The notes under the pieces were generated by a model. It did not search any database and was not told the DNA's origin. It saw only the letters and a program-made list of their open reading frames with translations. Shown here in pieces: positions 15,823 through 59,015 of a stretch of 64,000 bases of DNA (positions are counted from its first letter, which is position 1; each line of letters starts with the position of its first letter). Made by a program: the position numbers and the translations under genes. The stretch lies in NCBI RefSeq assembly GCF_037392515.1, contig NC_090291.1:13952501-14016500 (forward strand), given 5' to 3'. This DNA comes from Haliotis asinina (Eukaryota; Mollusca; Gastropoda; Lepetellida; Haliotidae).

Positions 15823-16755
15823 AACAACTCACACAATTATAGGATACGTCACACTCCTCTGTACAAACAACTCACACAGTTATAGGATACGTCACACTCC
15901 TCTGTACACACAACTCACACAGTTATAGGATACGTCACACTCCTCTGTACAAACAACTCACACAGTTATAGGATACGTCACACTCCTCTGTACACACAAC
16001 TCACACAGTTATAGGATACGTCACACTTCTCTGTACAAACAACTCACACAGTTATAGGATACGTCACACTCATTTTGACAAACAACTCACACAGTTATAG
16101 GATACGTCACACTCCTTTTTACAAACAACTCACACAGTTATAGGATACGTCATACTCCTCTGTACAAACAACTCACACAGTTATAGGATACGTCACACTC
16201 ATTTTTACAAACAACTCACACAGTTATAGGATACGTCACACTCTTTTTTACAAACAGCTCACACAGTTATAGGATACGTCATACTCCTCTCTACACACAA
16301 CTCACGCAGTTATAGGATACGTCACACTCCTCTGTACAAACAACTCACACAGTTATAGGATACGTCACACTCATTTTTACAAACAACTCACACAGTTATA
16401 GGATGCGTCACACTCCTTTTTACAAACAACTCACACAGTTATAGGATACGTCATACTCCTCTCTACACACAACTCACACAGTTTTAGGATATGTCACACT
16501 CATTTTTACAAACAACTCACACAGTTATAGGATACGTCACACTCCTCTGTACACACAACTCACACAGTTATAGGATACGTCACTCTCCTTTTTACAAACA
16601 ACTCACACAGTTATAGGATACGTCACACTCCTCTGTACACACAACTCACACAGTTATAGGATACGTCACACTCCGCTGTACACACAACTCACACAGTTAT
16701 AGGATACGTCACATTGCCCTGTACGCATGATTCACACAGCTATAGGATACGTCAA
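15823..16755. repeat. Minisatellite, 43-bp unit, about 22 copies
   Basis: Unit CAACTCACACAGTTATAGGA followed by TACGTCACACTCCTCTGTAC and AAA. Variation is concentrated in the CTCCTCTGTACA part (CATTTTTACA, CTTTTTTACA). The right end runs into the exon c remnant of SLC6 pseudogene C. Each unit has a TGACGTAT half-CRE-like site on the minus strand. Confidence 0.97.
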
Positions 16756-16766
16756 AGTTCCTCTTT

Positions 16767-17922
16767 CGATGCATTTGTAACTGTTCCCGAGAGGTTTGAG
16801 TCTGTCGTTCTTGGTTACGTTGAGTTATACCACGCTCGCCGGGCGACCATGTGGCGTGTTCCGTGAATTGCCACAAGCTGTCCTGGACAGGACGATGGAT
16901 TTCCTTTCAAGAAAAAAAATGATTTTGACGGTCAATATCTGACATTACCTTTACCTTTTTGACAGTTACATTTCACCTGGGACAAAGTATCGTCTTCCAC
17001 TGACGCAGTGGCACTGGTACACTATGCAGTACCTATATCAAGGGGTGTATTGCACATGTCTTGTCAATAGTGCAAAAAGATACAACCTTTTATATTTACT
17101 TTTCATGTTCACCAAGGTTATTGTTCTGAGAAAGAACGAGGGATTAGCCTTCTGACATTTCATTCTGCACTGGTACATTGTGCAATATCTAATATTAAGT
17201 GAGGGATTATTTTACAACAATTGTGTATTGTCAATAGTACCAAATATATATAACCGTCTACAATTACGTTTCAATGGCGGACACATGGCTCAATCGCTTG
17301 TTGGAAAACTGACCAAAAGCAACGTCCAGGCAGAAGAGCGGTATAGCCAAACCGATGATGAAGATTTGTGAGGTCTATCAGGAACGCACCAGCCGTTATG
17401 AAATTGGAAGCCTGAATAAAATGTTTTGGTGTGCTTTGAGATGTATCTGTGTTGCAACACGGCTCAGGGTTGGGGCGTGTCAGGATGAGGAAGCATTGAG
17501 GGACACTGGACTCAGAGACAGACCTTGATGCAGCATCTTTGTAAAATACTAGCAACGGTAAACGAGGGAACATTAAGATACAACTGCATTGTATGAGTGA
17601 ACCTGTATGAATAATATATAGGTTTGTTTGGATTATTGTCAACTCATTTCAGGAATGCCTCATTGACACCAAGTAAGTGGAGCTGATTATTTAACACCAC
17701 CAAGACGTGAGCCGTTTTGGCAAATAATATACAAATAAGACCATACCTCCTCCTCCGATTCTTTGGCAGACATAGGGAAACCGCCATAAGTTTGCTAGAC
17801 CCACATTAAATTCAAGCTGAACAATGAAACACATTTGACCTTTTAATCTCTCCGTCTGTTCTTCACCTGATACTACGTTTGGCTCCTGAAGGGAAGCGTT
17901 TATAGTCTGCTCCTTGCGCATT
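16767..17922 (-). pseudogene. SLC6 pseudogene copy C (exons a-c remnants)
   Basis: Three remnants in the order and strand of copy A. Exon a (about 17747-17922) still reads [15 protein letters not shown], with Ala for Gly in TM1 and an in-frame nine-base deletion relative to copy A, and it keeps splice-like ends. Exon b (about 17268-17389) aligns at DNA level but loses frame soon after GAFLI. Exon c survives only as a fragment (about 16767-16885) recognisable by the TGTGGCAAT...GGAACAC stretch that encodes the conserved Cys loop. The intron between b and c also aligns with copy A in part. A 43-bp minisatellite abuts exon c. No exons d to m were seen. The frame loss and missing exons make this a dead copy. 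Confidence 0.8.
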
Positions 17923-26566: not shown

Positions 26567-26692
26567 TTATCGATTAAAAACATGCAGCAGGTTTTCTTTC
26601 AACTTGTAAGACACATTTGCTTCCTCTGTAAAACCATACCGCTGCCTACATCTTTGCCACTCTGGACTTGGTGTCATGGCTTTCTTCACACG
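26567..26692 (-). CDS. SLC6 copy A exon m: C-terminal tail and stop
   Basis: Encodes [20 protein letters not shown] through LLHVFNR and a TAA stop at 26567-26569. [15 protein letters not shown] resembles the tail of glycine transporters. Acceptor CGTTACAG. Copy B has an exon of exactly the same length. Confidence 0.88.
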   Translation of the reverse strand, partial: RVKKAMTPSPEWQRCRQRYGFTEEANVSYKLKENLLHVFNR

Positions 26693-29600
26693 CTGTAACG
26701 ATTAACGCATTCTACACTAAGTCTTATACACACCATTATATGTAATTATAGCTCGAATATACCTGAAGGTTCCATCTGTTTTGAAAACTTTTTGATAAGT
26801 CCATCTCATTATATTTACTTACCGTTAAAGAGGGGAGACTTGAAAATGGATGCGAGGGACTTTTTGTCTAGGATATCAGCTTTTACAAATTATTTCTTTA
26901 TGTCTAACACGAACCTCAGCAAAGGAGCCTCTCTGCATCAGGATATATATCACTATAGTAACCGGAATAGGAACAACCGGCAGTACAGCAATGCACCAAC
27001 CAATGGTGACGGCGATTGGTGGGTACTCATAGCCAGCATATGTTGGTGGTTTGTAGGATGCGATGGTTAGTATCATTGATGCCTGTGTAAAACAAAGCGC
27101 ATAAATATATAATTCTGCATAGAAGCACTGAACCAGAATTGGTACATTATTAAGGAACAAAGCACCCATACAAAGTATCAATTAAAATAAAAACAAATCA
27201 TGTGTCAAAAGCTGAGTAGTCATACATGGTTCTTGTGGGAACAGATATTCTTGTTTTTCGTGTTTTGAAGGATGCATGATAATTCTTGATGCTGATGAGG
27301 TTTCTTAGGTGAGTGAGTGAGTGAGTTAGTTTAGTTTTACGTCGCACTTAGCAATATTCCAGCTTTATGGCGACGGTCTCTAAATAATCGAGTCTGGACC
27401 AGACAATCCAGTGATTAACAACATGAGCATCGATCTGCGCAATTGGGAACCGATGACATGTGTCAACCAAGCCAGCTAGTCTGACCACCCGATCCCGTTA
27501 GTCGCCTCTCACGACAAGCACAGTCACCTTTTATGGCAAGCATGGGTTGCTGAAGGCCTATTCTACCCCGGGACCTTCACGGGTCTGGTTTCTTAGGGGT
27601 TGTTATAATGACCAATAACGAACTGTGTTTGTCCAAACAATATTTGTAATTGTATTGTTGTGTCTGTTCGTGTTCGTTAAACTAGAGGTGCAACAATGAA
27701 GTTGATACTCTTTGTGATCAATCTGAATCCCTGCACTATTCTTCCACTGGGGAAAGGTATTACACACCAGCAACAAGACAGGAACAACGATGAAGCACAT
27801 CAGCTTGAAGACAACTGGAAGCCGTTTTCCTATCATAGCCTCAACGTCAACCGAGAAACGTTTCACACCTTGTGTGAGAAAAAGAAATAAACATCTTAGG
27901 CGCATATCTTACAGTTGCACACACAACTACAATTTTGTTCCCAAAATTTCGGATTCTAAGCAAATGTAGAAGCTGAAGTAGTCCATGTTAATTAAAATTA
28001 CATAAACGAATAGAATAAAGTAAATATCAACTCTTACAGAACATGTGTCTGCAGGCGTCTATGTCAACGAAACGTAACGCCGTGCGTTCGTGGTGACTAT
28101 TTTGGGAGGATGAAGAAAATCCGGTGAGAATTGACATGTCTCAGGAAGCTCTTTGCAGATAGAGATAACAGGGAATTTCAACAACCGAATGGTCCTGGTT
28201 AGGCATTGACCTCCACTATTATCCAATTTGGAACAAACCAAATCTGTATAAGATCGATTGAAATATTGTTTGCAACATCTTCAAATTGTCTAACAATGGA
28301 GCACGGGCTTATCTTTTACAGTCCTTTTGAGTGAGAAACGGACCGATGAATTGCAAATTTTATCATTGTACAAAACTGTCACATGAGTACACATAGTACA
28401 CGTTTATCATTTACTAATACCCAACAGTTTACGAATATTTGAACATTTTCCGGACTCCAACAAAAAGGTTGTTTAAGAAACTATCGTCGTCCCCTGCACG
28501 ACGACAGATTGGCCGTTCCGTTTCTGCGGTTTCACCCCACCGAGACAGATAACAGCTTTTGCGTTTTCAATGATGATAGTTTCTTAAACAGCTCTTTTGG
28601 TGACGTCCGGATAATATTGAAATAAAAGAAAGCTGTTGGGTATTAGTAAATGAAAAACATGTGTACTATTTATATTTATGTGGCAAGTCTCTAAAATATT
28701 AAAACATGCAATTAATCGGTCCGTTTCTGACTCAAACGGCTGTATGAGACTGCACGTCATTAGCAATGCCCAAGGTTGTGTGATTGAACATCCAAGAAAC
28801 TATCTTCATGAGAACCTTTAAACATAATATTGTCTTTTTCTAGGACATAACTCCACAAACGCCTGTGAAATAGCCTATGTAAATACCACGAAAAAAAGGG
28901 AACTCACTATAGAAAAGAAACGTTCTGAATAGGCTTGACAAGTAGCACACGATGGCTTCTGCTTGTGAAAATATAGATACAAAAGGAATGTGTTCCACGA
29001 ACCATACAGCCATCCAACAACCAGACATTCCAAAACGGCCACCACTAAGCACGCCACTGCACCCACATACCAGTCTACTAACTGGAACATGTACACCCCG
29101 GCCTGAAATGTAAAAGAGTTGGCGATCCAGATAGATACGATTTCAACAGTGAATATCTATGCGAAATAATCCACACTACAGACTAACGTGCCCGTGCAGG
29201 TAGCAAATAGCACTATACGTTTCATTATATATATATATATATATAATGTGTATGTATACATGTATGTATGTGTGTATATATACACACACATACATACGTA
29301 CGTACGTACGTACCTACATACTTAATTGCCTTTCGTTGTATATATATATATCTCAATTATTATTGACCGGCTAATGGTCAGGGTAAGAAGGTATCTTCAG
29401 CAGCCCATGCTTGTCTTAAGGGGCGGCAAACTGATTGGGTCATAACGCTCGCTGATTTGGTTGACACATGTCAACGGGTCCCAATGGCGCAGATCGAATA
29501 TCATGATGTTGACCAGTGGATTGTCTGGTCCAGACTCAATTATCTACACTCCGCCGTCATATAGCTTGGGTATTGCTGAGTGTGGCGTAAAACTAAACTC

Positions 29601-32600
29601 ACTAACTTTCGAGGAATCATTAAATGTGATGCTCACATTACTGGTGAAAATGAGACCAGATAGGAAAACTGCACCCATAAACACGGCAGCTATGACAGTT
29701 GGAAGATGTTTCTTGTGAAATCGTTTTGGTAGAATATCTTCCACACACCCCGTTGCTGCCTCGATGGCACCAAACTGTAAAATAAATGTATATACCTAGG
29801 TTGCTTGTAGAGGAGCTAATACACAAATAATATTTAGACTGCCTAAAAATTGCCTTCGGTCTCGATGTCTCAGTCGACTGAGGGCCGTACAAAGTAGGAA
29901 TATATGTACTGATTATGGAAGTAAGATGGAGTGTTGAGCAAAATGTTTCTCTCGCAAGACATCCCTCACGTATTCTTTTTATGTCAAATTCCTTTGAAAT
30001 CGCTGTAAGCCCCTGTGGACCCTAGTGTTGTGATCGTCCTTCTGCTGCTGGTGATCTATGACTCTTTTGATATTATATTATTTCGTTCTCTACAATGATA
30101 TTTCTTCATAACACGCTAGTTTTACTTTACAATTTGCATTACTGTAATTTTACTTCCCATCGACGACAGGTTTTATTCTTCAAAATGTATTCATCTTTAA
30201 TCAATAAATTGTAATCGTCACGTTATGCATGAACTACTGCTACCTTGATGCTAGATATTAACTTACTCACTAAAAATCAGAAGTTCATGGACCAGGGAGA
30301 GGGTCTTTTAAGATCAAATGGGCAGAAGCAACTAGTGCTGGTCTGCGTGATTCAGTAACAGGTAAGTCTAATAATATACCATGGTGTCGAAGCCCATCAT
30401 CAGAACTACTAAGAAGAATAGCACCGACCACAACTGAGGAACAGGAAGAAGTGAAACTGCCTCGGGGTAGACAACAAATGCAATGCCTGGACCTGCAAAA
30501 TAGTGTCATGAGGCAAATGTTATCACATCGACAATGGTACAAACGAAGCCATATAGCTGCGGCAAAAGCATAACTAATATACAATGTCTCTCCCAAACAT
30601 CATCATTGATTGTCCCCTTAGTTTTTCCTCTCTTCTCAGAAGTGTTTGAAAGAATAAACGTCATCAAGAAAACATGCAAAGCAGAAATTAAAGTGGAACT
30701 ACATGCGGTATCGATCACGGAGAGAAATAAAAACATTATGTTCAATTTTGCCATTCGCCTGGAAAAGAGGTAACTAAGAGGAGACTCAGTGTCACCAATC
30801 GAAAGATCGTCAAGGGCCTCATTGAAGCTGGGAACTCGCAGTGTGCCGTTGCCAGACATTTCAGCGTGCATCTAAGCATCTTTGGGACTGTTTCTTGCAG
30901 ACCAATTCCACCAAATATCGTCAGGACAAGGGAGTGCTTCCATCATGCAACGCTACTTAACATGTAGCGCGCTTCACGCTTCGCTACCTTACTAAGTCTA
31001 ATGTCAATATCGTGCCATGGCCTTCCCGAACACCAGATCTAAACCGGCTGAACACGTGTATGTCACGTCATATCGTGCCTCAGACACTTGCCTCACACGT
31101 AACTTGCCATTGTTTGTGAGAGTGGGGAATAATTCAATAAGTGTGATTTAGCCGGCTTATCCATTCTGTGCTGTGCAACGGTCCGGAAAAATCTTTGCTG
31201 CCAGAGTTAGCCACACAAAGTACTGACGTTGCCTCCATTTTCACCTTCTTACATGAAAATATTCCTCTTAAATTAAGGCAATAAATACAAAGTCTAAATA
31301 GGTCTTACGCGTTTCTCTTTTGAAAGAGTGTACTTCATCTTATTGGCAACAAGACAAGAACTAATGCTTTAAGGGTTAAAAATGAAATCTCGTTGTTGTG
31401 ACTAGTAGCACGTCAGTGGCGTATTTGTCTCAAACGCCGCCATGGTTTGATGAGACATTGTCGCATAATAAGGTCTGCCAATACCAAGTAGAAAAACGAA
31501 AACGTTCTCGGACATTGGAGGCAAAATGCTTCCAGGCTTCTTGACGGGAGCAGTTTGTTCTCGTACAGACATTCATCAAAAGCGTTCATTACTGTTTTTG
31601 CCTCTTTCAACCATTAGACCATGTCAGATAAGTTTTAACAAGGATTCTAAGCATGATTGTGATGTAGAAATAGGGCCAACTCAAAATGTTTTTGTATAGC
31701 TTGAGGGACACCCACCTACGCAGTTGTTCTGGGTATCATATGGATAACGCATCACTCTCATAACGTGAATTCAGTTCTCGTATGATGGACCATAGACACG
31801 ATAATATTTTCTAAGTAAGTATTCGGGGTCATTACGTGTACGTATTGTTGATGGATTTTGGATACGCACCTGAAGTGATCACGTCAGCTACAGGCACCCC
31901 GACATTGTGAGCCAGGAAGCCGACCGTTGCGAACACAATAAAACCGGCATAAACACTTGTCAGCTCGCCTAATAAGACAACCACAATAGAATCCCTGCAA
32001 ACAAAATAATGTTCAAAGTAGTAGTACTTATTCTCAGCCAATCAACATCTCTTATAACAACCATAGACCGCTAAAGACATATTTAAACCCGGATCTCTAC
32101 AGGTCTATTTCTTGCACAAACTGACTTCGCTGTCTTAATGTAGATATAAAGTATATATACCATTTGTTTGCATTCATGTCAAAGGCCAAAACGTACGCGT
32201 GTACATAATACATCAGATATAGACAAGTAAAATACACACTGAGCTAAACATTGATAAATGGAGTAGCTCAGGAGAGTAACAATCCGCGCGCGCATTCATC
32301 CATTACCTGACAATATTGTGACGAGGGGCGTTGTGACTTGCAATGACAATCAGAGATCCCCATGCCGGTCCCGAAGAGTAGAATACGTGGAGAAGGGCTT
32401 CCAGCCACACCTAGGAATGAGATGAGCAGTGTTTTAGTGTGTTTTTGTCTGTTATGTCATTTCGTCAATCAAAAATGCCTTGAGCAAGCTTACCTGAGCA
32501 TTTTGAAGACGCATGAAATCTGGGGTTAAGTAAAATGAAATCCCATCTGCAGCACCTGGCATCATGGATGCCCTGACCAGGAGCGTCGTCAGCAAAACGT

Positions 32601-35600
32601 ATGGCATTGTCGCAGTCACGTACACAACCTGTGGAACAAAGGGATCCGCATTTCTTAGAATGAAAAAAAAAGAACACGTATCCGATTAATCTACAGTTTT
32701 TCACCACATGAGTACATTTCATGTTTAGTCAACTATTTGATTCTGTCCATCACCAGGGTTGAAGACTCGGTCTTGGATCGTTCAGGACCACTCCCATTGG
32801 CAGTCTCTACGTCGAGGCTGTTGAGCCATCTTTGAAAATCCACCGTACCAAATTGTCTCTTCAGTAGAATACAAAGCTATATTCTGATGAATCCAATCCT
32901 GCACACAACGGCGTGTTTAATCCTGCTTACTAGGATCTGTATGATAAAACGTCTTCAAGTGCTCCTCTTCTATGGATAAGAAGCCATATATTTCTGCTGA
33001 TGGTATTGATTTTGAAAACATATACAACAAATTACCATGTAAAACATGTTCTCGTCACCACATACCAAAAACATTCACAATAAATTGTAAGTCACTCACG
33101 TGTGTTATGGTAACTCAGAAACATAATTAAACCCTCATCTTACCACCATATTTCAAAGCGTTCATAACTGTACATGTGCCTGAAAGGCCCAGTCTGCCCC
33201 TAATTAGTCATGGGGATATTTACACATCATCGGTAACATTATGAGTAATTACATGTGTGCATAGGCTGCAGAAAACATGCAGCGACTGAGCTTGCGTGAG
33301 CTTTTGAGAGACAAGTCGACACAATCACTGACCTCCACAAGATCATAACAAAAACGGGATTAAATCTTTATTAAGGGGGTAATGCCGTGTCGTGAGGAAC
33401 TATTTGTAATTTCCTTCTGACGAACCCTCTCGGTGGGCCGTCCTTTAAGTGGTAAAAGTTCAGTTCACAGTCTGTGATGTCGACGCGGTACGTTTTCACG
33501 GACCGAATCGGACCGGAGGCATGTTTTCCGCCGTGTTCCTAGTCTTCACCCGGTCGGTGTAAGTACCTCACGTTTGCACGATCCGGTAATGTTTTCATCA
33601 GATCAGCGAGCTGCTGCCGTCGACGCTTCGGTGGTGACGAATTTCATTCAGATGGCTTCGAGGTGTCTCTTGTCCACGAGTCCGGTGGCCTCGATGTTCA
33701 TGACATCCACAACCCGTGGTAAGTTTATGAACCATTCCGTGTATGTTATGGGGATGGGTTTAATCCTGCGCGTACTAGATGCGAGAAAAGGCATCCGGCT
33801 AAGGTGTGATTGAATCTCTCGACCAAGCCGTGCCTTACCGTGACGTGGTGCTTGACCAGCACCTCCCACACGGCCTCCATGAACTCGCGTCCGCGATCAA
33901 TTTGCAGTTTGCTTAAACAGAATCTTACAGGTGGACTGTTTTCACAACTCGGTGTGCATGCATAAGTACGGTTCCATCAAGGGACTTTGATAAAATTTGC
34001 AAAATCCGTGTATTTTTTCAGCTTCATCCTCAACGATAAGTAGCACCACATACCTTTTCCTATCCATCAAGTTAAGTTTTTACACGGACTCTGATTCATT
34101 GTATCCTAATAATGATAGTCTCACACCCATTCTCGATCGACCATCAACTGTTCTGTTGCCAGCGGATAGCTGTTGTGAGCAGCGTGGAGTTCCACCAGGC
34201 ACTCCAAGTCGACTTTCATGATTTTTATCTCATTGTCAATCCATTGGAAACGTCCTTTCGGTAGATAGTCACTCATGGCCCAACCATAGAATTCGTTGCC
34301 GTTGATTTAGAGGATGTAGTTGATAGGTTGATTCGCATTATAGTCTTCCACGTGTGTTGTTGGAATTCGCGTAGCATGCGCAAACAAAATGATATCCAAG
34401 GATGAAAGTGAAGATGTGTCTTTCCAGGTGGGAGATAAAAGAGAAAGACCCAACCTCGCCTTGGGTAGGAAGGGAGAAGAATACCTGCGTGAAAATATTG
34501 CCACTGATAACACGTATAACGTGTCCGATTGAGATATCAATAAACTGTCTGCGAGGTACGAAGCCAAATTCAGTGCTGAAAAAACCACAGGGTTGACGAT
34601 CACGCAATTTCTCACCGTAATATCATCGACTCTGCATGCTAGGGGAGAGACGGGTCCATAGCTCCTACCTGACACCCCTATTACCCGACCCGGCTACCCA
34701 TTATAACACTAATTGCGAGTTATTCCGTTTGACCAGTAGCAGCTGAGATTAAGCACGCCGTCTGAATATACGTTGTATTTTAAATGATGCACAAAGCCAA
34801 AATGTGTTTCGAGCTCGGTGCAGCTAAGATACAAAGATGTGGAAACATCTGAATGACAAATATCTCGCCGTGAGAAACAACGACCTACGAACAACTACCG
34901 TTCCAACAGCCTAGAGACAAAATACAGTTGAAGGTATCCAAGGTATTAAATATATAGTGTATACCACAGAAACTTGAAGTAATAAAGTTATGTAAACACT
35001 TTTGTGATTATGATACCGTGTCATAATTTTTGAAAAGGTATACTGGATTAAACACAGAAAACAATGTTGACATCATATAGACAATGACATTTATCGAATG
35101 ACTGATCATCTCCTTGTTTCTATTAGTATTACTTCTACATTTAGATAGATCTATTGTCAGAAACTGATGCTGACATCGCTATTGTCAAAGTCAATCACAA
35201 ATTTTCCATTTTCAAATTTTCTAAGACAATGAACGTTTATGACTAGATTTAACAACAGTCACCTTTTGCAGTATTGTTATCCACCATAACCAGTTTTGCG
35301 GGGAATATTACTTAGACTCCGTTGGTGAGCGCGTCCGACAGTACTGTTCGTGCAAATAAGTCTTTTCCGGAACAGAACTTTAAAAGCGTTCTATGTGTCT
35401 TCACCAAACCTGACACGTAGATAGGTCTGGTAGTGGACCGGTGCCTTTTGGTAAGTTTGGATTTCTAATAAAAAACACTTTTTTCGCATTTCCAACTCAA
35501 CACGTTTTACTTCGACTGAAATCGGTGATACTCTTCCTTTCTGGAGCAGAAGGTTCAAACCTTTCAATATGTTTCTTCCACTGTGTGGGTATTCATGGAC

Positions 35601-38600
35601 CTATTGACATAAACCAGCACTACTGATGTACATCATAACGTAAGCATTCATGCAGTCTGTTGATGATACAATCCTCCTAGCATATGTCTAATTTACTTAT
35701 GTATGGTTTCATTGCATCAATGTGAAGAACAATGTTTCATTTGACACAGTCATGCCAGTTGACATATTCATGATGAAGTAATTAACCATTGGACACTGAT
35801 GAATGTTTCAAGGCTGTTTGTGACATTCAACTTGTCACGTAAGTCACGCTGACTGGATGTCAGGTCAGTCGTGTAGCACATTTTCCGGTAACCAATCACA
35901 TCAAGCAATACATCAAAAGTCACCTGGTCATTTATAAAATTATTTCGCTGACCCCATTACAACGGCAACGAATCACACTCAAAATACCACAGGAGGCAAC
36001 ACTATCCGTGCAACATAGTCAAGTTTCGTTTTCAAACCAGTATAACTAGTATAATTCTGTTGAACCTGATAACTTGATGATAATGAATACGGTATATGAA
36101 CATCAGGAACTTCTTCTCTTCAGACTCTATTTGCTGCGGATGTCTGCGTTCCTAAGTCCGCTACATGTAAACAGTTAATTACTTACAACCTATGTTACTC
36201 GTAACATGCATAGTTGTCGACAGACTGAGTTTATATCTTATGGGTTTTCAGTGCAGTTTGTCAAACAAAAGACAACAGTGGTTAAACAATCTCTTGTAAA
36301 TATTAAAAAAGTTAAGGCAAAAGCCAAACATTTAATTAATTCTTCATCTTCACAGACTCATCACGTGATGAGTGTGGGGTACTCATCAACTGATTACCCA
36401 CCCGCCCCGACCCTACTGCTTCCCATTCCAGCTTTATTTTTGTGAAGATTTCAATGTGGAGCAGTTTGTTAGTCATGCCTTGAACATCCTCAGTTGTGAG
36501 TTCTTTACGGCGAATCACTGTCAATTCAAACATAAATGCCTGACTAACGATGTAAAAAAATGACATCGACACCTTCAGAGGAGACACCCCAAGTGATTGA
36601 TACCGTGACGAAACTAAGAATCTGATAAAGCCGGCTGCCGATAAAAGGGAGGGTTAGCTCGGCATACTTAACCGATAAATACCCCAGTGCCGCAGCAGTT
36701 ACTGTCATGGGAATCAAGGCGGATGTATGTTTCTGTCCACAATAGAAAATGACGAGTCAGTCTCTATGCTGAGATCATTTCTACCACCGTCGGAAAAAAC
36801 CAAAAGCATTTGTCAACGACGCGTATCAGTCCGCCGTGGGCACGGGTCCAGTCACCGGCTACGTGAATTTGAGTAAACTGATCACGAAAAAATCCACTCC
36901 CCAACTTGATTTCAACTCATATGACATGGGCATGCTCGTCCTAGGTTTGGGACGAGTTATTGCTACCAAAGATGTGCTCATCAATCAAGCAGTGATTCCG
37001 GAAAACATATTAAGGTAATCATACATCACATAGTAATGCCTTGATGATCAGCGTGGATTTTGTCAGTGCCCTCGCCTGTTCCAGCTGCAACTGCCTTTCT
37101 TATCTATGGACGTCGAGCCCGACTGACATCGAAGCACAACGGAAAAGTCACGATTTGGCCATGCAACCGCAGGTCGAGTACACGAGAAAACGAGTGCAGG
37201 GAATTGATGTCATCAACGCTCAAATGGCGCGTGAAAGCCATGCCGTTTGAACGTTAGAGCACGTCAAAGCCGCCATGCAACCGCAGGTCGAGTACACGAG
37301 AAAACGAGTGCAGGGAATTGAGGTCATCAACGCTCAAATGGCGCGTGAAAGCCATGCCGTTTGAACGTTAGAGCACGTCAAAGCCGCCATGCAACCGCAG
37401 GTCGAGTACACGAGAAAACGAGTGCAGGGAATTGATGTCATCAACGCTCAAATGGCGCGTGAAAGCCATGCCGTTTGAACGTTAGAGCACGTCAAAGCCG
37501 CCATGCAACCGCAGGTCGAGTACACGAGAAAACGAGTGCAGGGAATTGATGTCATCAACGCTCAACTGGCGCGTGAAAGCCATGCCGTTTGAACGTTAGA
37601 GCACGTCAAAGCCGCCATGCAAGAATACTTCTTACTCACTGTTGACTGTTTTGTTCATCACTTACATTTATTTATGGCGAATTTAAACTTGTTTCAGTCA
37701 TGATATTGCGGGACTATTGTCGATTTTAATTAATATTTTTAACTCACTTCACTGATAAACGCAATGTCACAAGACAAACGTACCTTTCCAAGAGATTTGA
37801 CTCCTTTCATCAAACACAGGAACATGCTCACACAGGTAAGAAACCAGCAAATGACGAGATGCGGCTGCAGAGATCCCATATTATTCAAGCTCGAGGAAAT
37901 GACAAGGACTTTGTATCTTAAACATAAGACATACAATAAAGAATAACCTAAGACCATAAACAGATAGCATTATATAAAATTCAGAACCAATGTAGAGAAC
38001 TTACTGCCAAAACTCCTCTGTTGATGTGTGCCCAAATGCATTTGTAAATATTCCAGAGATATTTGAATCTGCAGTAACTATTGTGTCCCGACTTAGCATA
38101 GGATTCATCGTAGAACTGTTGGTGCCGCCACTTGACCCTGCAGCGGCAACACACTGTTGTGTGTTCCATGCATTGCCACAACTTGTCCAGGGCAGGACGG
38201 TCGAGAAGGAGCTGTACAGATAGTAGAGGGCCCAAGTAAACACCATGCTGTAGTAAGGGACACTCACACAGTTTGCTATCAGTATACCGTAACCGATACC
38301 TTCAAAATAAAACAAGTAATCTGAGTTTCTCATTTAAGAACAACAATAAATGAAAGATCCACATCTGGCTGGACCAAATTGTTTTCCGAAGTTGTTGCTC
38401 TGAGAAAGATTTTATCCAGATATCTGCCTTTGCAATTTCAGTTTGGACTTGTCCATTGTGCAGTATCTACTGACGTGAGGAAAGATTTTACAACAATCGG
38501 GTATTGTCATTAGTGCAAATATATATGTTTATGTTTACCTTTCAATGATGGGCACATTGCCCAAACCCGTATGGGACCTTTGCGGGAGAACTGACCAATA

Positions 38601-39375
38601 GCAACCTCCAGGAAGAAGAGCGGTATAGCCACCACGACGATACAGATTATGTGAGGTATCAGAAACGCACCTGTGGCATAAAGAGAGGTGATTAGAGTGT
38701 CTGTACATTATATAGTGTAGTTTGTTTTGAGTAATATCTATGCCACGTTAGACGCGCCTATTTGTTTTTCAAATTTGTTTAGATGAGGACTGAGAGAATA
38801 TGGTTTTATACCACTATTAGCAATATTCCAGCAGGGGGAAAACTGGACTTCACACTGGAACTGATAATGAGAAACTTTACAACAATTGAATAGTTTTTTA
38901 GTTTAGATATGTAATAGTGAGTGAGTTAAAACTTAACGTCACATCGGCAATATTGCAGTCATAACGTGACGAGGACAGTTTATATCAATATTCAAATCGA
39001 TAAATGTATTACATAAAAACCTATCAAAGGGCAGAAAAATTGCACGAATATCACAGCTCTTAATTTAAAACTAGTACGCTATCATCAAAATATACTTCAA
39101 GACGACAGTACAATGTAAGAACGAGCTATAGATCACCAGTAACTGAAGGCTGATCACCACACTAAGGACACATGAATTATGTGAAAGATCATACCTCCTC
39201 CGTTTCGTTGACAGACGTAGGGGAATCGCCATAAGTTTCCGAGACCCACAGAAAATCCAAGCTGAGCAATGACGCCTTGAAACGCGTTTGACCACTGAGC
39301 TCTCTCCGTATGTTCATCACATGATATCACGTTGGGCTCATGGAGAGTAACGCTTTCAAGATGCTTCTTTGTCAT
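26567..39375 (-). CDS. SLC6 transporter, glycine-transporter-like (copy A), 13 exons
   Basis: Predicted plasma-membrane Na+-coupled amino-acid symporter with 12 membrane segments. Exons (5' to 3'): 39195-39375, 38539-38670, 38005-38299, 37784-37916, 32494-32628, 32307-32410, 31870-31994, 30380-30492, 29637-29774, 29003-29102, 27768-27868, 26915-27082, 26567-26692. All introns are GT-AG, every phase matches, and the sum is 1851 bp (616 residues plus stop), normal for SLC6. Visible marks are [10 protein letters not shown] in TM1, Cys145/Cys154 and two N-glycosylation sequons in the second extracellular loop, and [12 protein letters not shown] before TM8. Gly44 replaces the Asp of amine transporters, and Trp309 in TM6 (SGPAWG) matches glycine transporters, so glycine or another small amino acid is the likely substrate (inference). 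Odd: His67, His300 and Gly336 sit at chloride-site positions. The start at 39375 is the first ATG after a good acceptor, and a Met is conserved there in copy C; an upstream coding exon cannot be excluded. Confidence 0.85.
26915..27082 (-). CDS. SLC6 copy A exon l: TM11 end and TM12
   Basis: Encodes [20 protein letters not shown], then TM12 and the QRGSFAE start of the cytoplasmic tail. It has 56 whole codons. Acceptor TTACACAG, donor GTTCGT. Copy B differs at only about five bases. Confidence 0.9.
27309..27588 (-). repeat. Family A copy with target duplication
   Basis: Full length and well preserved. The 11-bp GGTTTCTTAGG occurs at 27298-27309 and 27587-27597, a target-site duplication of the LINE-driven kind. 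It lies in the copy A intron between exons k and l and is absent from the same intron in copy B. Confidence 0.88.
27768..27868 (-). CDS. SLC6 copy A exon k: start of TM11
   Basis: Encodes [18 protein letters not shown] and the first half of TM11 (FIVVPVLLL). Donor GTGTGT. It continues as [13 protein letters not shown] into exon l. The longer open frame beyond the donor is intron read-through. Confidence 0.82.
28319..28742. mobile_element. MITE with 165-bp arms, TA-flanked
   Basis: Left arm 28319-28485 and right arm 28574-28742 are imperfect inverted repeats (ends CAGTCCTTTTGAG and CAGCCGTTTGAG on opposite strands). The 88-bp loop has no gene. TA at 28317-28318 and 28743-28744 flanks it. The matching intron of copy B has the uninterrupted site (CTTTATGAG near 56261-56268). 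TA duplication and CAG ends suit a Tc1/mariner-type nonautonomous element. Confidence 0.85.
29003..29102 (-). CDS. SLC6 copy A exon j: TM10
   Basis: Encodes [19 protein letters not shown] through VVGWLYG, matching SLC6 TM10. The acceptor CATTTCAG is strong. The donor GTTCGT is weak but is supported by phase and by the same boundary in copy B (GTTTGT). Confidence 0.82.
29226..29352. repeat. AT/GT/ACGT simple-repeat block
   Basis: (TA)n, then TGTATG variants, ACACACATAC, (GTAC)n and (TA)n again. It can fold on itself. Lies in the SLC6 copy A intron between exons i and j. Confidence 0.9.
29375..29608 (+). repeat. Family A copy beside SLC6 copy A exon i
   Basis: The tail ends 27 bases from the exon i donor. 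The tail end is also present at 57222-57252 beside copy B exon i. Confidence 0.85.
29637..29774 (-). CDS. SLC6 copy A exon i: end of TM8 and TM9
   Basis: Encodes [19 protein letters not shown], then TM9 ending GLIFTSN. Acceptor TTTTACAG, donor GTGAGC. A family A retroposon ends about 27 bases beyond the donor, inside the intron. Confidence 0.9.
30010..30272 (+). repeat. Family B copy, copy A intron h-i
   Basis: Contains CATCGACGACAGGTTTTATT and CAAAATGTATTCA. Same position as 57765-57998 in copy B. Confidence 0.75.
30380..30492 (-). CDS. SLC6 copy A exon h: loop 4 and TM8
   Basis: Encodes [17 protein letters not shown] and the start of TM8, ending MMGFDTM. Asp404 and Thr405 match the Na2-site Asp-Ser/Thr pair. 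Donor GTATAT. About 200 bp around this exon, including intron sequence, is almost identical to copy B. Confidence 0.92.
30772..31230 (+). mobile_element. Tc1-type transposon remnant in SLC6 copy A intron
   Basis: The HTH-like [20 protein letters not shown] lies near 30801-30870. The Tc1 C-terminal signature [10 protein letters not shown] lies near 31010-31045, and LATQST of the usual ending near 31205. The part between is collapsed, so most of the catalytic domain is deleted. The first part has a counterpart at the same place in copy B. Confidence 0.7.
31870..31994 (-). CDS. SLC6 copy A exon g: TM7
   Basis: Encodes [18 protein letters not shown] and [11 protein letters not shown], then the [11 protein letters not shown] start of loop 4. 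TSVYAGF is typical of glycine transporters. Gly336-Glu337 stands where Asn-Cys or Asn-Ser is usual (Asn368 in SERT). Copy B has the same Gly-Glu pair. Confidence 0.92.
32307..32410 (-). CDS. SLC6 copy A exon f: TM6
   Basis: Encodes [19 protein letters not shown] and the start of intracellular loop 3 ([12 protein letters not shown]). His300 occupies the chloride-site Gln position (Gln332 in SERT). Ser304 is kept, and Trp309 matches the glycine-transporter Trp. No equivalent of this exon was seen for copy B inside the window. Confidence 0.9.
32494..32628 (-). CDS. SLC6 copy A exon e: TM5
   Basis: Encodes [20 protein letters not shown] (TM5), then [15 protein letters not shown] of extracellular loop 3. 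Acceptor TTCCACAG, donor GTAAGC, 45 whole codons. It joins exon d in frame as GK|VVYVTA, the usual family sequence. Confidence 0.92.
33360..34330 (-). mobile_element. Polinton-like fossil: integrase and polymerase pieces
   Basis: Virus-like fossil in the large intron between SLC6 copy A exons d and e. Nearer 33.4-33.95 kb are parts of a retroviral-type integrase (the core region around [14 protein letters not shown] and a VERFN stretch, plus a C-terminal tail). Nearer 33.96-34.33 kb are stretches resembling the family B polymerase of Polintons ([19 protein letters not shown] and LMDRKRYVV). It is old and broken in many places, with most of the element missing. No terminal repeats were seen. 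Sequence at 34330-34910 may also belong to it. Confidence 0.6.
34340..36770. other. Copy A intron d-e, unassigned
   Basis: Contains coding-like stretches on the minus strand near 36.34-36.74 kb ([40 protein letters not shown]) that match no family I know and are not SLC6. The remainder shows nothing. Confidence 0.4.
36780..37018 (+). other. Unrecognised coding fossil upstream of 114-bp array
   Basis: Open stretch with protein-like text ([45 protein letters not shown]). The 114-bp repeat array begins 143 bp further on and is also coding-like, so the two may come from one gene. Family unknown; possibly part of a virus-like element, since similar fossils lie nearby. Confidence 0.35.
37161..37616 (+). 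repeat. Tandem array, 4 x 114 bp
   Basis: Four units start at 37161, 37275, 37389 and 37503, differing at only about two bases. The unit is exactly 38 codons long and contains [20 protein letters not shown] followed by QMARESHAV. It begins after a first unit that continues from unique sequence, and ends with a partial ATGCAAGAATAC unit. Confidence 0.95.
37784..37916 (-). CDS. SLC6 copy A exon d: TM4
   Basis: Encodes [18 protein letters not shown], then TM4 and MKGVKSLGK, matching the SLC6 WKGVKSSGKV motif after TM4. Donor GTACGT. It is followed by a roughly 5.2 kb intron with the 114-bp repeat array and fossil element pieces. Confidence 0.88.
38005..38299 (-). CDS. SLC6 copy A exon c: TM3 and second extracellular loop
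   Basis: Encodes TM3 with the paired Tyr120-Tyr121 (substrate-site Tyr in SLC6), then [10 protein letters not shown], then the large second extracellular loop. The loop carries the conserved disulfide Cys145/Cys154 ([11 protein letters not shown]) and sequons at Asn165 and Asn184. Donor GTAAGT. The last codon is split and completed by exon d (EEFWQ|YKVL). Confidence 0.9.
38539..38670 (-). CDS. SLC6 copy A exon b: TM2
   Basis: Encodes AFLIPH followed by TM2 and the [10 protein letters not shown] motif typical of SLC6. The residue after Pro66 is His67, where chloride-dependent members have Tyr (Tyr121 in SERT). Acceptor CCACAG, donor GTAAAC, phase 1 at both ends, continuous with exons a and c. 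Confidence 0.9.
38916..39176 (-). repeat. Family B copy, copy A intron a-b
   Basis: From GTGAGTGAGTTAAAACTTAA to GATCACCACACTAAGGACAC, ending about 20 bp from the exon a donor. Confidence 0.8.
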
Positions 39376-54866: not shown

Positions 54867-54992
54867 CTATTGATCAAAAACATGCAGCAGGTTTTCCTTC
54901 CAGCTGTAAGAAACATCTGCTTCCTCTGTAAAACCATACCGCTGCCTGCATCTTTGCCACTCTGGACTTGGTGTCATGGCTTTCTTCACACG
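54867..54992 (-). CDS. SLC6 copy B exon m, stop
   Basis: [20 protein letters not shown], then [19 protein letters not shown] and TAG at 54867-54869. Acceptor CTTTTCAG. Confidence 0.86.
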   Translation of the reverse strand, partial: RVKKAMTPSPEWQRCRQRYGFTEEADVSYSWKENLLHVFDQ

Positions 54993-57900
54993 CTGAAAAG
55001 ATTAACGCATTCTACACTTATTCACATCATTATATATCATTATAGCTCGAAAATATTCGAAGGTTCTGTCTGATCTATAAATCAAGTCCACCCTATATTA
55101 TTATTTACGATTAGATAGGAGAGATTCTACAATGGAAGAGAGGAACATGTGTTTGTTATTTCAGTCTTACAGAGCACTGTTTATCACAAACCTCAGCAAA
55201 GGAGCCTCTCTGCATCACGATATATATCACCATAGTAACCGGAATAGGAACTACTGGCAGTACAGCAATGCACCAACCAATGGTGACGGCGATTGGTGGG
55301 TACTCATAGCCAGCATATGTTGGTGGTTTGTAGGATGCGATGGTTAGTATCATAGATGCCTGTGTAAAACAAAACGCATTATATATAATTCAGCACAGAA
55401 ACACTAATCCATGATATCTGCATGCAGAATTGTTATAATGAAAAATCAGGTCTCAAAGTGTCGCTGAGGGGTCCATACATGGATCTTGTGGGAGTAGCTA
55501 TTGGCGTTTTCGTGTTATGAAGTTTATATGATAATTCATGATGCTGAGGGTTTTTTCTTCGGGGTTGTTATAGTGAGAAATATAGAAATGTCTTTGCCTA
55601 AAGTCCTTACAATATTTGTAATTATTTGGTTGTGTCGGTCTGAATCGGAGAAGCAACAAAGAAGTTGATACTCTTTGTGATCAATCTGAATCCCTGTACT
55701 ATTCTTCCACTGGGGAAAGGTATTACACACCAGCAACAGGACAGGAACAACGATGAAGCACATCAGCTTGAAGACAACTGGAAGCCGTTTTCCTAGCATA
55801 GCCTCAACGTCAACTGAGAAACGTTTCACACCTTGTACGTGAAAAAAGACACATGTTGGGCGCATATCTTACAACTGCACACAAAACTAAATTTGTGTTC
55901 CCAAAATTTCGGATTCTAAGCAGTTATCGTAGATGAATAAACAAAACCTATTCTGTGTTAAGTAACATTAGATAAACGAAAACAACAGTGTAAATAGCAA
56001 CATAAAATCTGCATATAATGTCTGTGTAATAAAAATGTAACAACGTGACTATTTTGGGAGGTGGAAGGTAATTTGATGACAATTGACATATCTTAGGAAG
56101 CTCGTTGGATATAGAGATAACTGGGAATTTAGACAATCGAAAGGTCCCAGAGAGGCATTGACCTCCAGTATTGTCCGATATGGGACAAACAAAACATCGG
56201 TTGAAATAATGTTTGCAACATCTTCAAATCCTCTAACAATGGGGCTCATGCTTCTCCTTTATGAGATAGCGCGACCTTCTTAACGCTCAAGTTTGTGTGT
56301 TTGAACATGCCCCGAAACTAGGTTCATGTGAACGTTTGCACATTATATTGTCTTTTTATAGGATATGCCTTCATAAAAGCCCGTGAAGTGTTTGCTCGAC
56401 TCCATCCTTTTTCATAAGCCAATAAATAGATACGTGTACTATGAAACGAAGGATATTCTTTACAGAAAAGAAACGTTGTGAACAGGCTTGACAAGTGGCA
56501 CATGATGGCTTCTGCGTGTGAAAATAAAGATACAAAAGGAATATGTTCCACAAACCATACAGCCATCCAACAACCAGACATTCCAAAACGGCCACCATTA
56601 AGCACGCCACTGCACCCACATACCAGTCTACTAACTGGAACATGTACACCCCGGCCTGAAATGTAAAAGAGTTGGCGATCCAGATACACTACAGTACTTA
56701 ACAGTTTCATTGGTGGTTAGTCTGATGATCTAGCTTCAAATGCTTGCGATCTATTACCTGTTGTGATGATATATTTTGATTTTCACACTAGTTCTACGAT
56801 TATGTCTGTGATATTCTAGTTATTTTTACTGTCGTCACTGACAGGTTTTTAAGATTTACGTAAACATATTGGGAAATTTAACACTTGCTTTGGCCACGAT
56901 ATGGCGAATGAGTGAGTTTAAATTTACAAATTTACAACTTCTGGCACTAATTCGGGAATATCGTGACTAAAACAATATATAATTAACAATATTTAAGTTA
57001 ATTATACAGTCCTGTCAACGAAGGACAGTGAAACAACTCGAATATCACAGATATATATGTAAAACTAGTAATTAAATATAAAACATTTTAACTAAAGGGA
57101 ACAACACAATATGAAAAAAGGCTATAAACAGATCGCCAAGAATTGAAGTAAGATGAGCATACTCGGAACCATGGAGACTTACAGACTGACAAAAACTTTC
57201 CTACCTGCATATAATTTATCGCCGCGCAGCGTAAAACTAAACTCACTAACTTTCGAGAAATGATTAAATGCGATGCTCACATTAGTGGTGAAGATGAGAC
57301 CAGATAGGAAAACTGCACCCATAAACACGGCAGCCATGACAGTTGGAAGATGCATCTTGTGAAATCGTTTTGGCAGAATGTCCTCCACACACCCAGTTGC
57401 TGCCTCGACAGCTCCAAACTGTTCGTATATAAAGGTTGCTCGAAGAGGACATTAACATACAAGTAATAATAACATTTTTTAAATTGCCTTTGGTGTCGAT
57501 GTCTCTGTCAACTAAGGGCCCTGCAAAACATAAGTATTCGTACTAATTATGGACGTAATGTGGATTGTGGTTATTAAATGTGAACTAGCATTCCCGACTA
57601 TATTCTGGTCTATTTGACTGACTTTGACAGGCCCGAAACCGCTGTTGTTCACTCTTGATTTAGTTGACGAGGGAAGACAGTGAGAAAAAATGTTCCTCTT
57701 TCACTGAAGACATGCCACAGATATTCTTTTTATGTCAATTCCCAATTCCCTCGCGATACGTCCCCATGGACCCTGGTGTGGTGATCTTCCTTCTGGCGCT
57801 TTCTGATATGGATTTGTGCTCTTTTATGATATTTCCTTATAATAACATGCTGATTTTACATTACAATTTTGGGATACGGTGGCTTTATTTGACATCGACG

Positions 57901-59015
57901 ACAGGCTTTAATATTCAAAATGTATTCACCTGGAATTAATAAATTGTTCTTGTCAGATATGGATGAAGTATAGCCGATGTGTTGCTGAAAATAACTTACT
58001 AAAAAATCGCAAAGAAACACATGAATCAGAGAGAGACTTTTTCAGTTACTTAAGATCAAACAGGCATGAGTTAGGAAATATGCATTATGTCACAATGGAC
58101 CGTCAGCAGTTACAATATCACAAGTAATTACATTCAAAATATACATACGGCCTTCTGAACCACTCCCGTGAAGATATTCAAAATATATTCTATACCGTTG
58201 TGAAATAATCTACAAACATCTACATCAGTAACCTAAGCTGGTCTGCGTGATTCAGTAACAGGTTAGTCTAATAATATACCATGGTGTCGAAGCCCATCAT
58301 CAGAACTACTAAGAAGAATAGCACCGACCACAACTGAGGAACAGGAAGAAGTGAAACTGCCTCGGGGTACACAACAAATGCAATGCCTGGACCTGCAAAA
58401 TAGTGTCATGAGGCAAGTGTTATCACATCAACAATAGTCAGCATGATGGAAAGAATCAGAAAAAGTAAATGCACGGGTGATTTTGAGAATATTGGACTCA
58501 AAAACAATACAAACATACAATCTCTCTACAAAATGTCATCTCTGATTGTAAACAGATTTAGCGCTAACACGCCTCAGTTTCATGCTTTTCCTCTTCACGT
58601 CATCGTGTAAATATGCAAAGCTAAATGCACGTGCAGGTAAATGAGAAGACATGCTCTATCGATCACTGTGAAATGGCAAACGTTATGTTTAATTTTGTCA
58701 TTCGCCTGGGAAAGAGGAAATCACCATGCCACGTGTGCCCCCAATTGAAACATCGTCATATGCAGCCTTGAAACTGGGACTCACTGTCTGCAGTTGCCAT
58801 ACATTTCAACGTTCATCAAAGCACTTTATCTTTAGAGTCGTTTTCGTTTCCCATTTTAATGTTTCATTACATTTCATGCGTGTTACGCACCTGAAGTGAT
58901 GACGTCAGCAACAGGAACATCAACATTGTGAGCAAGGAAACCGACCGTTGCGAACACAATAAAACCGGCATAAACACTTGTAAACTCGCCTAATAAAATA
59001 ACCAATATAGAATCT
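54867..59015 (-). CDS. SLC6 transporter copy B, 3' half (exons g-m)
   Basis: Tandem paralogue of copy A on the same strand. Exons 58891-59015, 58280-58392, 57281-57418, 56556-56655, 55731-55831, 55192-55359 and 54867-54992 have exactly the same lengths and phases as copy A exons g to m, and all stay open to a TAG stop. They encode TM7 to TM12 and the tail. The exons are nearly identical to copy A while most intron sequence is not. TM1 to TM6 exons are not found between 59016 and 64000, where other repeats and a Polinton-like fossil lie. They are either beyond the window or lost, so whether the gene works cannot be decided. Differences include LGEFTS in TM7 and a tail ending VFDQ. Confidence 0.8.
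55192..55359 (-). CDS. SLC6 copy B exon l
   Basis: End of TM11 and TM12: [12 protein letters not shown], then [16 protein letters not shown]. 56 codons, good acceptor and donor. Confidence 0.88.
55731..55831 (-). CDS. SLC6 copy B exon k
   Basis: Start of TM11: [18 protein letters not shown], then FIVVPVLLL. Same length and phase as copy A. Confidence 0.82.
56556..56655 (-). CDS. SLC6 copy B exon j
   Basis: TM10, [19 protein letters not shown], ending GWLYG with donor GTTTGT, as in copy A. Confidence 0.82.
56905..57205 (-). repeat. Family B copy, copy B intron i-j
   Basis: From GAATGAGTGAGTTTAAATTT to ACCATGGAGACTTACAG, then runs into the family A tail remnant at 57222. It may have replaced the body of that family A copy. 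Confidence 0.75.
57222..57252 (+). repeat. Family A tail remnant beside SLC6 copy B exon i
   Basis: GCAGCGTAAAACTAAACTCA then CTAAC, at the same distance from the exon as in copy A. The body is gone and a family B repeat adjoins it. Confidence 0.8.
57281..57418 (-). CDS. SLC6 copy B exon i
   Basis: End of TM8 and TM9, with donor GTGAGC. The tail of a family A retroposon sits at the same distance after the donor as in copy A. Confidence 0.87.
57765..57998 (+). repeat. Family B copy, copy B intron h-i
   Basis: Counterpart of 30010-30272 (CATCGACGACAGGCTTTAAT, CAAAATGTATTCACC). Predates the A/B duplication. Confidence 0.75.
58280..58392 (-). CDS. SLC6 copy B exon h
   Basis: Loop 4 and the start of TM8, one base different from copy A in the coding part. 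The flanking introns are also nearly identical over about 200 bp. Confidence 0.88.
58715..58860 (+). mobile_element. Tc1-type remnant in SLC6 copy B intron
   Basis: Shorter counterpart of 30772-31230: alignable around the CCAATTGAAACATCGTCATA and CATTTCAACGTTCATC stretches. Same intron, same strand, so inherited from before the A/B duplication. Confidence 0.6.
58891..59015 (-). CDS. SLC6 copy B exon g
   Basis: TM7: [18 protein letters not shown], then [17 protein letters not shown]. It keeps the Gly-Glu pair at the chloride/Na1 position. First exon of copy B seen in the window. Confidence 0.85.

Follow-up and report, generated by a model that had tools for sequence, protein, structure and literature searches.

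An unusual predicted ion site in two related SLC6 transporter genes of Haliotis asinina

The ligands of the ion sites have been assigned in several SLC6 transporters. For dDAT, PMC6742698 names Ser320, Ala44, Asn49 and Asn352 as ligands of Na1 and Tyr69, Gln316, Ser320 and Ser356 as ligands of chloride. The chloride ligands given for SIT1 are Asn27, Tyr47, Gln247, Ser251 and Ser287 (PMC11217458). In an older model of GAT1, the putative chloride site had included the TM7 Asn (PMC10137170). According to the same review, uptake is undetectable with GAT1 Q291S or Q291N, Q291 contacts the gate residue R69, and transport by N327A and N327C slows 20 to 80 fold and requires more sodium. A further change at this residue, N327S, appears in PMC7612498 among disease variants.

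Several relatives are reported to be chloride-independent through acidic residues near the sodium sites (PMC6166138). KAAT1, which is weakly chloride-dependent, carries Asp at the position of the TM7 Asn, and orthologues of B0AT1 and B0AT2 mostly carry Asp as well (PMC8310414). B0AT1 and B0AT2 seem chloride-independent, and a permanently bound chloride has been proposed for them (PMC10137170). In LeuT, as one paper on this protein notes, Gly24 and Gly26 flank the moving Leu25. LeuT Glu287 is embedded in the central pocket together with Glu112 and Glu290 (PMC4191883), and it is modelled as protonated, hence neutral, in LeuT structure and simulation papers including PMC4191883. The review PMC8310414 regards it as an open question what SLC6 transporters gain from chloride dependence and by which route they lose it.

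Copy A: gene model and ion-site residues

The window analysed here is the whole 64,000-nucleotide stretch of Haliotis asinina DNA at positions 13,952,501 to 14,016,500 of NC_090291.1; coordinates without a contig prefix refer to it. On its minus strand, the coding sequence of an SLC6 gene (copy A) extends from 39375 to 26567, with 13 exons, 616 amino acids, 0 stops and GT-AG borders at 12 of 12 introns. The gene model is predicted from genomic DNA, with splice points set by hand, guided by homology. The exons are as follows.

39195..39375, minus strand: exon 1, Met1 to the first base of codon 61, TM1; open frame, donor GTATGA
38539..38670, minus strand: exon 2, TM2; His67 at 38653-38651 (CAC), replacing the chloride-ligand Tyr
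38005..38299, minus strand: exon 3, TM3 and extracellular loop 2; Tyr120-Tyr121
37784..37916, minus strand: exon 4, TM4-5; acceptor picked to give a join matching GlyT1
32494..32628, minus strand: exon 5, KVVYVTA...NAQ, start of the TM6 region
32307..32410, minus strand: exon 6, TM6; His300 at 32389-32387 (CAC), replacing the chloride-ligand Gln; Ser304 and Trp309 retained
31870..31994, minus strand: exon 7, TM7; Gly336 at 31969-31967 (GGC), replacing the Na1-ligand Asn; Glu337 at 31966-31964 (GAG); Ser340 retained
30380..30492, minus strand: exon 8, TM8 (first part), with Asp404-Thr405 of the Na2 site
29637..29774, minus strand: exon 9, end of TM8 to TM9
29003..29102, minus strand: exon 10, TM10, Asp462
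27768..27868, minus strand: exon 11, TM11
26915..27082, minus strand: exon 12, TM12
26567..26692, minus strand: exon 13, C terminus, stop TAA

A tandem array of 4.1 copies of a 114-base unit, with 99% matches, occupies 37158-37622 inside the long intron that separates exon 4 from exon 5.

The predicted protein carries a full-length SNF domain, that of the SLC6 or neurotransmitter:sodium symporter (NSS) family (Pfam PF00209, 546 bits, residues 25-566, profile positions 1-521 of 524). Its best matches among solved structures are GlyT1 (462 bits; residues 19-589, E 2e-137), GlyT2 (461) and the betaine transporter (446), separated by a small margin. A single NCBIfam match was obtained, with 33 bits, below its cut-off of 50. 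Like GlyT1 (SLC6A9) and GlyT2 (SLC6A5), copy A has a Gly at the substrate position of TM1 and a Trp (Trp309) in TM6, and like GlyT2 it has Asp-Thr in TM8. In contrast to both, the Tyr, Gln and Asn of the chloride and Na1 sites are His, His and Gly, and their Cys or Ser after the Asn is Glu. Fold and family are ordinary in this protein and in copy B, described below; the ion site is unusual.

For the positions of interest we use SERT numbers, namely 121 for the TM2 Tyr, 332 for the TM6 Gln, and 368 and 369 for the TM7 Asn and the residue after it. Copy A was aligned with GlyT1, GlyT2 and CT1. In the HMMER alignment with GlyT1 (PDB 8wfj), His67, His300, Gly336 and Glu337 stand opposite Tyr, Gln, Asn and Cys with no gap nearby, and Ser304 and Ser340 stand opposite Ser and Ser. 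A preliminary description of this DNA had read the two His and the Gly as replacements, and the two Ser as kept, at these same residue numbers and within 31870-38670, which is the interval from the end of exon 7 to the start of exon 2. The rebuilt 616-residue model and the alignment agree with that reading. The description had also taken the Na2 Asp-Thr pair, the TM1 core, the TM3 Tyr pair and the glycine-type Trp of TM6 to be intact, as we find them (Asp404-Thr405 in GFDTM of TM8, Tyr120-Tyr121, Trp309). The Arg and Asp of the gate are retained too. Counterparts of three chloride ligands, Asn47 in TM1, Ser304 in TM6 and Ser340 in TM7, are present; Asn47 and Arg50, both in exon 1, were assigned by motif.

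The same description had counted all three replaced residues in the chloride site. This holds for the Tyr and the Gln, but the Asn corresponds to an Na1 ligand in dDAT (PMC6742698); a contribution of this Asn to Na1, which the description had also mentioned, is in line with dDAT Asn352 of that source. The chloride-ligand Tyr of TM2 and Gln of TM6 are both absent from copies A and B, where His is found instead, and the Na1 side-chain ligand Asn of TM7 is absent as well, being Gly336 in A and Gly335 in B. In the predicted proteins of both copies, the replacements accordingly affect two chloride ligands out of five, along with one ligand of Na1.

A published equivalence sets GAT1 Asn327 and Ser331 against LeuT Asn286 and Glu290, which puts Glu337 at the position of LeuT Glu287 (LeuT TLNEKAE). 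Copy A therefore resembles LeuT, a chloride-independent prokaryotic NSS, in having Glu after the Asn position (Asn286-Glu287 in LeuT). It differs in that LeuT keeps Asn286, Tyr47 and Gln250 and has Glu290, the counterpart of Ser340, in place of chloride. In copy A the acid is absent from the Glu290 position and found at the Glu287 position instead.

Copy B, remnant C and selection

Two further copies, one intact and one broken, were located.

54867..59015, minus strand: copy B exons 7-13, the part inside the window; Gly335-Glu336 in exon 7
C12:14027707-14017140, minus strand: copy B exons 1-6, beyond the window; His67 in exon 2, His299 in exon 6
16755..17921, minus strand: remnant copy C, exons 1-3 in part, with broken frames

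Copy B is intact, encodes 615 amino acids with GT-AG borders at all introns, and scores 548 bits against Pfam SNF. His67, His299, Gly335 and Glu336 reproduce all four changes of copy A. The Gly-Glu change had been noticed in copy B before; the His pair, common to both copies, could not be seen from the window because exons 1-6 lie outside it. In remnant C, the codons for Pro-His67 (CCT-CAC) are recognisable in the remains of exon 2 (17389-17269) despite the broken frame, suggesting that His67 may be older than the three-way duplication.

Copies A and B are under purifying selection, as judged by dN 0.057 and dS 0.225, which give an omega of 0.26 (bootstrap 0.19-0.34) at a DNA difference of about 9%. 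In the exons that bear the replaced sites omega is 0.16 (exon 2), 0.07 (exon 6) and 0.14 (exon 7), and it is higher in the terminal exons (0.60 in exon 1 and 0.49 in exon 13). The TM6 His is encoded by CAC in A and by CAT in B, so that His has been kept across a synonymous change. General decay, which the preliminary description had already argued against, is ruled out: the gene is intact, the changes recur in an intact copy B, and both copies are open with low omega.

An artefact of assembly or exon choice, in which the real transcript would use an exon with Tyr, Gln or Asn, could be imagined, the gene models being predicted from genomic DNA. It is, however, extremely improbable, given that the same residues occur in copy B at about 9% DNA difference and that the Pro-His codons are kept in remnant C. 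When the copy A protein was searched against the window with tblastn, no extra exon 2, 6 or 7 was found besides those of copies B and C, which rules out an exon swap inside the window.

Synonymous divergence between A and B is uneven, lying at 0-0.08 in exons 8, 10, 11 and 12, at 0.13 in exon 13 and at 0.15-0.53 in all the other exons. The low values at 54867-58392 versus 26567-30492 suggest gene conversion between the two copies. A separate difference concerns the position of LeuT Gly26, which is Gly in A and Ala both in exon 1 of copy B (C12:14027707-14027527, GLANLW) and in remnant C (17921-17736).

Ion-site residues and trees across the SLC6 exons of the genome

Ion-site positions were read from loci and stretches of the same genome in 57 TM2, 44 TM6b and 65 TM7 exons, the counts being of exons and not of genes. 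The 57 TM2 exons were read among at least 150 matches, and two were unreadable at the position (one short alignment and remnant C). The TM6b and TM7 exons came mainly from 150 matches to the copy A peptide, and this sample therefore leans toward A-like genes.

At position 121, 31 TM2 exons carry Tyr, 22 Phe and two His, with two unreadable, so that Tyr or Phe is present in 53 of 55 readable exons. Position 332 is Gln in 42 TM6b exons and His in two (n=44). All four His at these positions belong to A and B; the other 53 TM2 and 42 TM6b exons that could be read there have none, which makes the pair more than a chance finding. A and B keep 28 of the 30 columns in which conservation among the other copies is 90% or more. 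They depart at the Gln (42/42 in the others) and at column 30 of TM6b, where Phe has become Pro. A further departure is the column in which, of 53 others, 31 have Tyr and 22 Phe. Two other residues are confined to A and B: Ser or Ala after Ser304, where 40/42 others have Leu, Val or Met, and an Arg at a TM2 position that varies among the copies.

The Asn position behaves differently from the His pair. Residues 368/369 in the 65 TM7 exons are Ser-Glu in 24, Gly-Glu in 18, Cys-Glu in 2, a small residue without Glu in 6, Asn in 8 and Asp in 7. A small residue (Ser, Gly or Cys) thus occupies position 368 in 50/65 exons (Ser alone in 25/65), and since Asp is found there in known members, the Na1 Asn is no family-defining residue. 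Glu follows in 44/50 exons with a small residue and in 0/15 with Asn or Asp; the six small-residue exons without Glu have Gln (2), Ala (2), Ser (1) or Val (1). Among 23 linked genes, only A and B combine His, His and Glu.

Two trees were built. The first has 25 rows (22 genes and 3 references), one of the 23 linked genes having been dropped for an incomplete TM2. The second, of TM6b and TM7, has 66 rows (63 of the 65 exons and 3 references) and keeps the motif columns; any row exceeding 8 gaps was left out. It holds 49 of the 50 small-residue exons, the 50th (C12:18099153) being in the 25-row tree. In the 25-row tree the small-residue genes form one clade of 18 genes with support 100. Support is still 99 after removal of the four motif columns, so that the clade in this tree is not an artefact of the motif itself. 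In the 66-row tree, with the columns kept, 49 TM7 rows form the clade with support 88. As the trees unite them, the small-residue TM7 exons are not independent of one another.

Copies A and B (support 100) lie inside a nine-gene sub-clade (99, or 100 without the columns). Its seven other members have Tyr and Gln, together with Gly-Glu (4), Gly-Ala, Gly-Ser or Gly-Val. The Glu consequently appears dispensable, being missing in 6/50 small-residue exons including three of these seven nearest relatives of A and B. Deep splits inside the small-residue clade are poorly supported (51, 49), and the placement of the single nearest relative of A and B is uncertain, with support 78, or 70 without the columns. 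As the trees place the changes, the loss of Asn is older than the His pair and is shared across a large clade within this genome. The preliminary description had treated the three replacements as one set. This view does not stand: the exon survey and the trees rule out a single joint event, as the Asn loss is clade-wide and the His pair occurs only in A and B.

A relaxed A/B stem left no sign in crude pairwise dN, where A-to-sister values of 0.21-0.31 fall within the range of 0.20-0.36 between other sub-groups; this result is weak because most sister dS values exceed 1 and several are saturated and uncomputable.

The coincidence of His67, His300 and Glu337 raises the idea of a divalent-metal site, for zinc for example, in the former anion pocket, which would lock or gate the transporter. 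Both His counterparts are ligands of one chloride site in the structures described (PMC6742698, PMC11217458), the Glu position lies in the LeuT central pocket (PMC4191883), and none of the 23 linked genes except A and B combines the three residues. We nevertheless consider such a site very unlikely, as the Glu predates the His. In an ideal helix, moreover, residues 369 and 372 face directions about 60 degrees apart, which leaves contact with the site unproven.

Possible consequences for ion coupling

We tentatively favour, with a probability of about 0.42, a reading of copies A and B as functional, GlyT-like transporters that would couple small neutral amino acids to sodium and depend on chloride weakly or not at all, in which the Glu near Na1 would supply charge and the His pair pH sensitivity. 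The trees would give two steps. An ancestor of the large clade would have exchanged the TM7 Na1 Asn for a small residue, usually with Glu next to it, and the chloride-ligating TM2 Tyr and TM6 Gln would both have changed to His on the A/B stem. Movement of a small neutral amino acid with sodium would rely on the Na2 site, which is intact, and on those Na1 ligands that remain. The negative charge, a role played by chloride in relatives, may come from the fixed carboxylate, and the two His may occupy the anion pocket, hydrogen-bond the gate residue Arg50 and confer pH sensitivity. With a carboxylate charge and His in the anion pocket, chloride dependence is expected to be weak or absent. The published mutants at GAT1 Gln291 and Asn327, together with the acidic residues near sodium sites in relatives, make a changed ion requirement plausible. 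The protonated state of Glu287 in LeuT models weakens the charge-carrying role proposed for Glu337. The small-residue exons that lack this Glu and the higher omega of the terminal exons also tell against the favoured reading.

The closest functional parallels are the weakly or non chloride-dependent KAAT1/CAATCH1 and B0AT1/B0AT2, in which the TM7 Na1 Asn is likewise replaced (PMC8310414). Unlike in KAAT1 and the B0ATs, the Asn of A and B gave way to a small residue and the acid stands one position later. No counterpart of the His pair is mentioned for KAAT1 or B0AT in the parts of PMC8310414 that bear on these proteins.

As the chief alternative, chloride might still be bound and coupled, with the His replacing the Tyr hydroxyl and the Gln amide as hydrogen-bond donors, or acting as protonated cationic ligands, and with an affinity that depends on pH. 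An anion could still bind since Asn47, Ser304 and Ser340 remain, their counterparts being chloride ligands in SIT1 (PMC11217458). The Phe found for the TM2 Tyr in 22/55 readable exons suggests that the hydroxyl is often dispensable in the family, and the permanently held chloride proposed for B0AT1 and B0AT2 (PMC10137170) would be a precedent. However, Gln is found in 42/42 other copies, even its change to Asn kills detectable uptake in GAT1 (PMC10137170), and the adjoining carboxylate, if charged, disfavours an anion. On balance we hold retained chloride coupling to be somewhat unlikely.

The loss of uptake in GAT1 on changing Gln to Ser or Asn also means that A and B could be impaired, that is, poor transporters kept as sensors, scaffolds or channels after loss of ion-site coupling. 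The inactive or 20 to 80 fold slower GAT1 mutants (PMC10137170), the disease listing of N327S (PMC7612498) and the Ala of copy B at the LeuT Gly26 position would fit. Such a role is unlikely, though, given the retained Na2 pair, TM3 Tyr pair and Arg/Asp gate, the low omega of exons 2, 6 and 7, and an Asn loss common to 50/65 TM7 exons.

A bolder reading would be that proton-linked transport free of chloride arose anew in the large clade, along another route than in LeuT, and that the His-His-Glu pocket of A and B binds protons, or even a divalent metal, where chloride was bound before. The Na1 Asn would have been given up, a carboxylate gained one residue later at the LeuT Glu287 position, and His-His-Glu then assembled in the emptied chloride pocket. 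We regard this bolder reading as distinctly unlikely.

Related genes of one genome here form a natural series, with Asn, Asp, Ser-Glu, Gly-Glu, Gly-Ala and His-His-Gly-Glu. Since GAT1 is damaged by substitutions at these positions, the series displays the combinations that evolution has kept, and it offers a direct test bed for whether the part of chloride can be taken by a carboxylate close by or by histidines.

The SLC6 family of this genome is very large, with at least 150 TM2-exon matches and several groups clustered on contigs C2, C11 and C12. Gly-Glu TM7 exons lie on C12 (17/18) and C1 (1), and Ser-Glu exons on C12 (13), C11 (10) and C2 (1; n=24); all nine TM7 exons read in C12:17589405-17955526 are Gly-Glu. 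In the scallop Chlamys farreri, SLC6A5S is counted among scallop-specifically expanded subfamilies in PMC9324277, in a remark that comes with no residue data. It is the only mention of SLC6 expansion in molluscs or their relatives that was found in the open-licence PMC text searched, PMC8699752 included. At a separate locus, C13:27358133-27358615, a single open frame contains three near-identical TM2 exons at a spacing of 174 bases, an arrangement resembling a duplicated or mutually exclusive exon.
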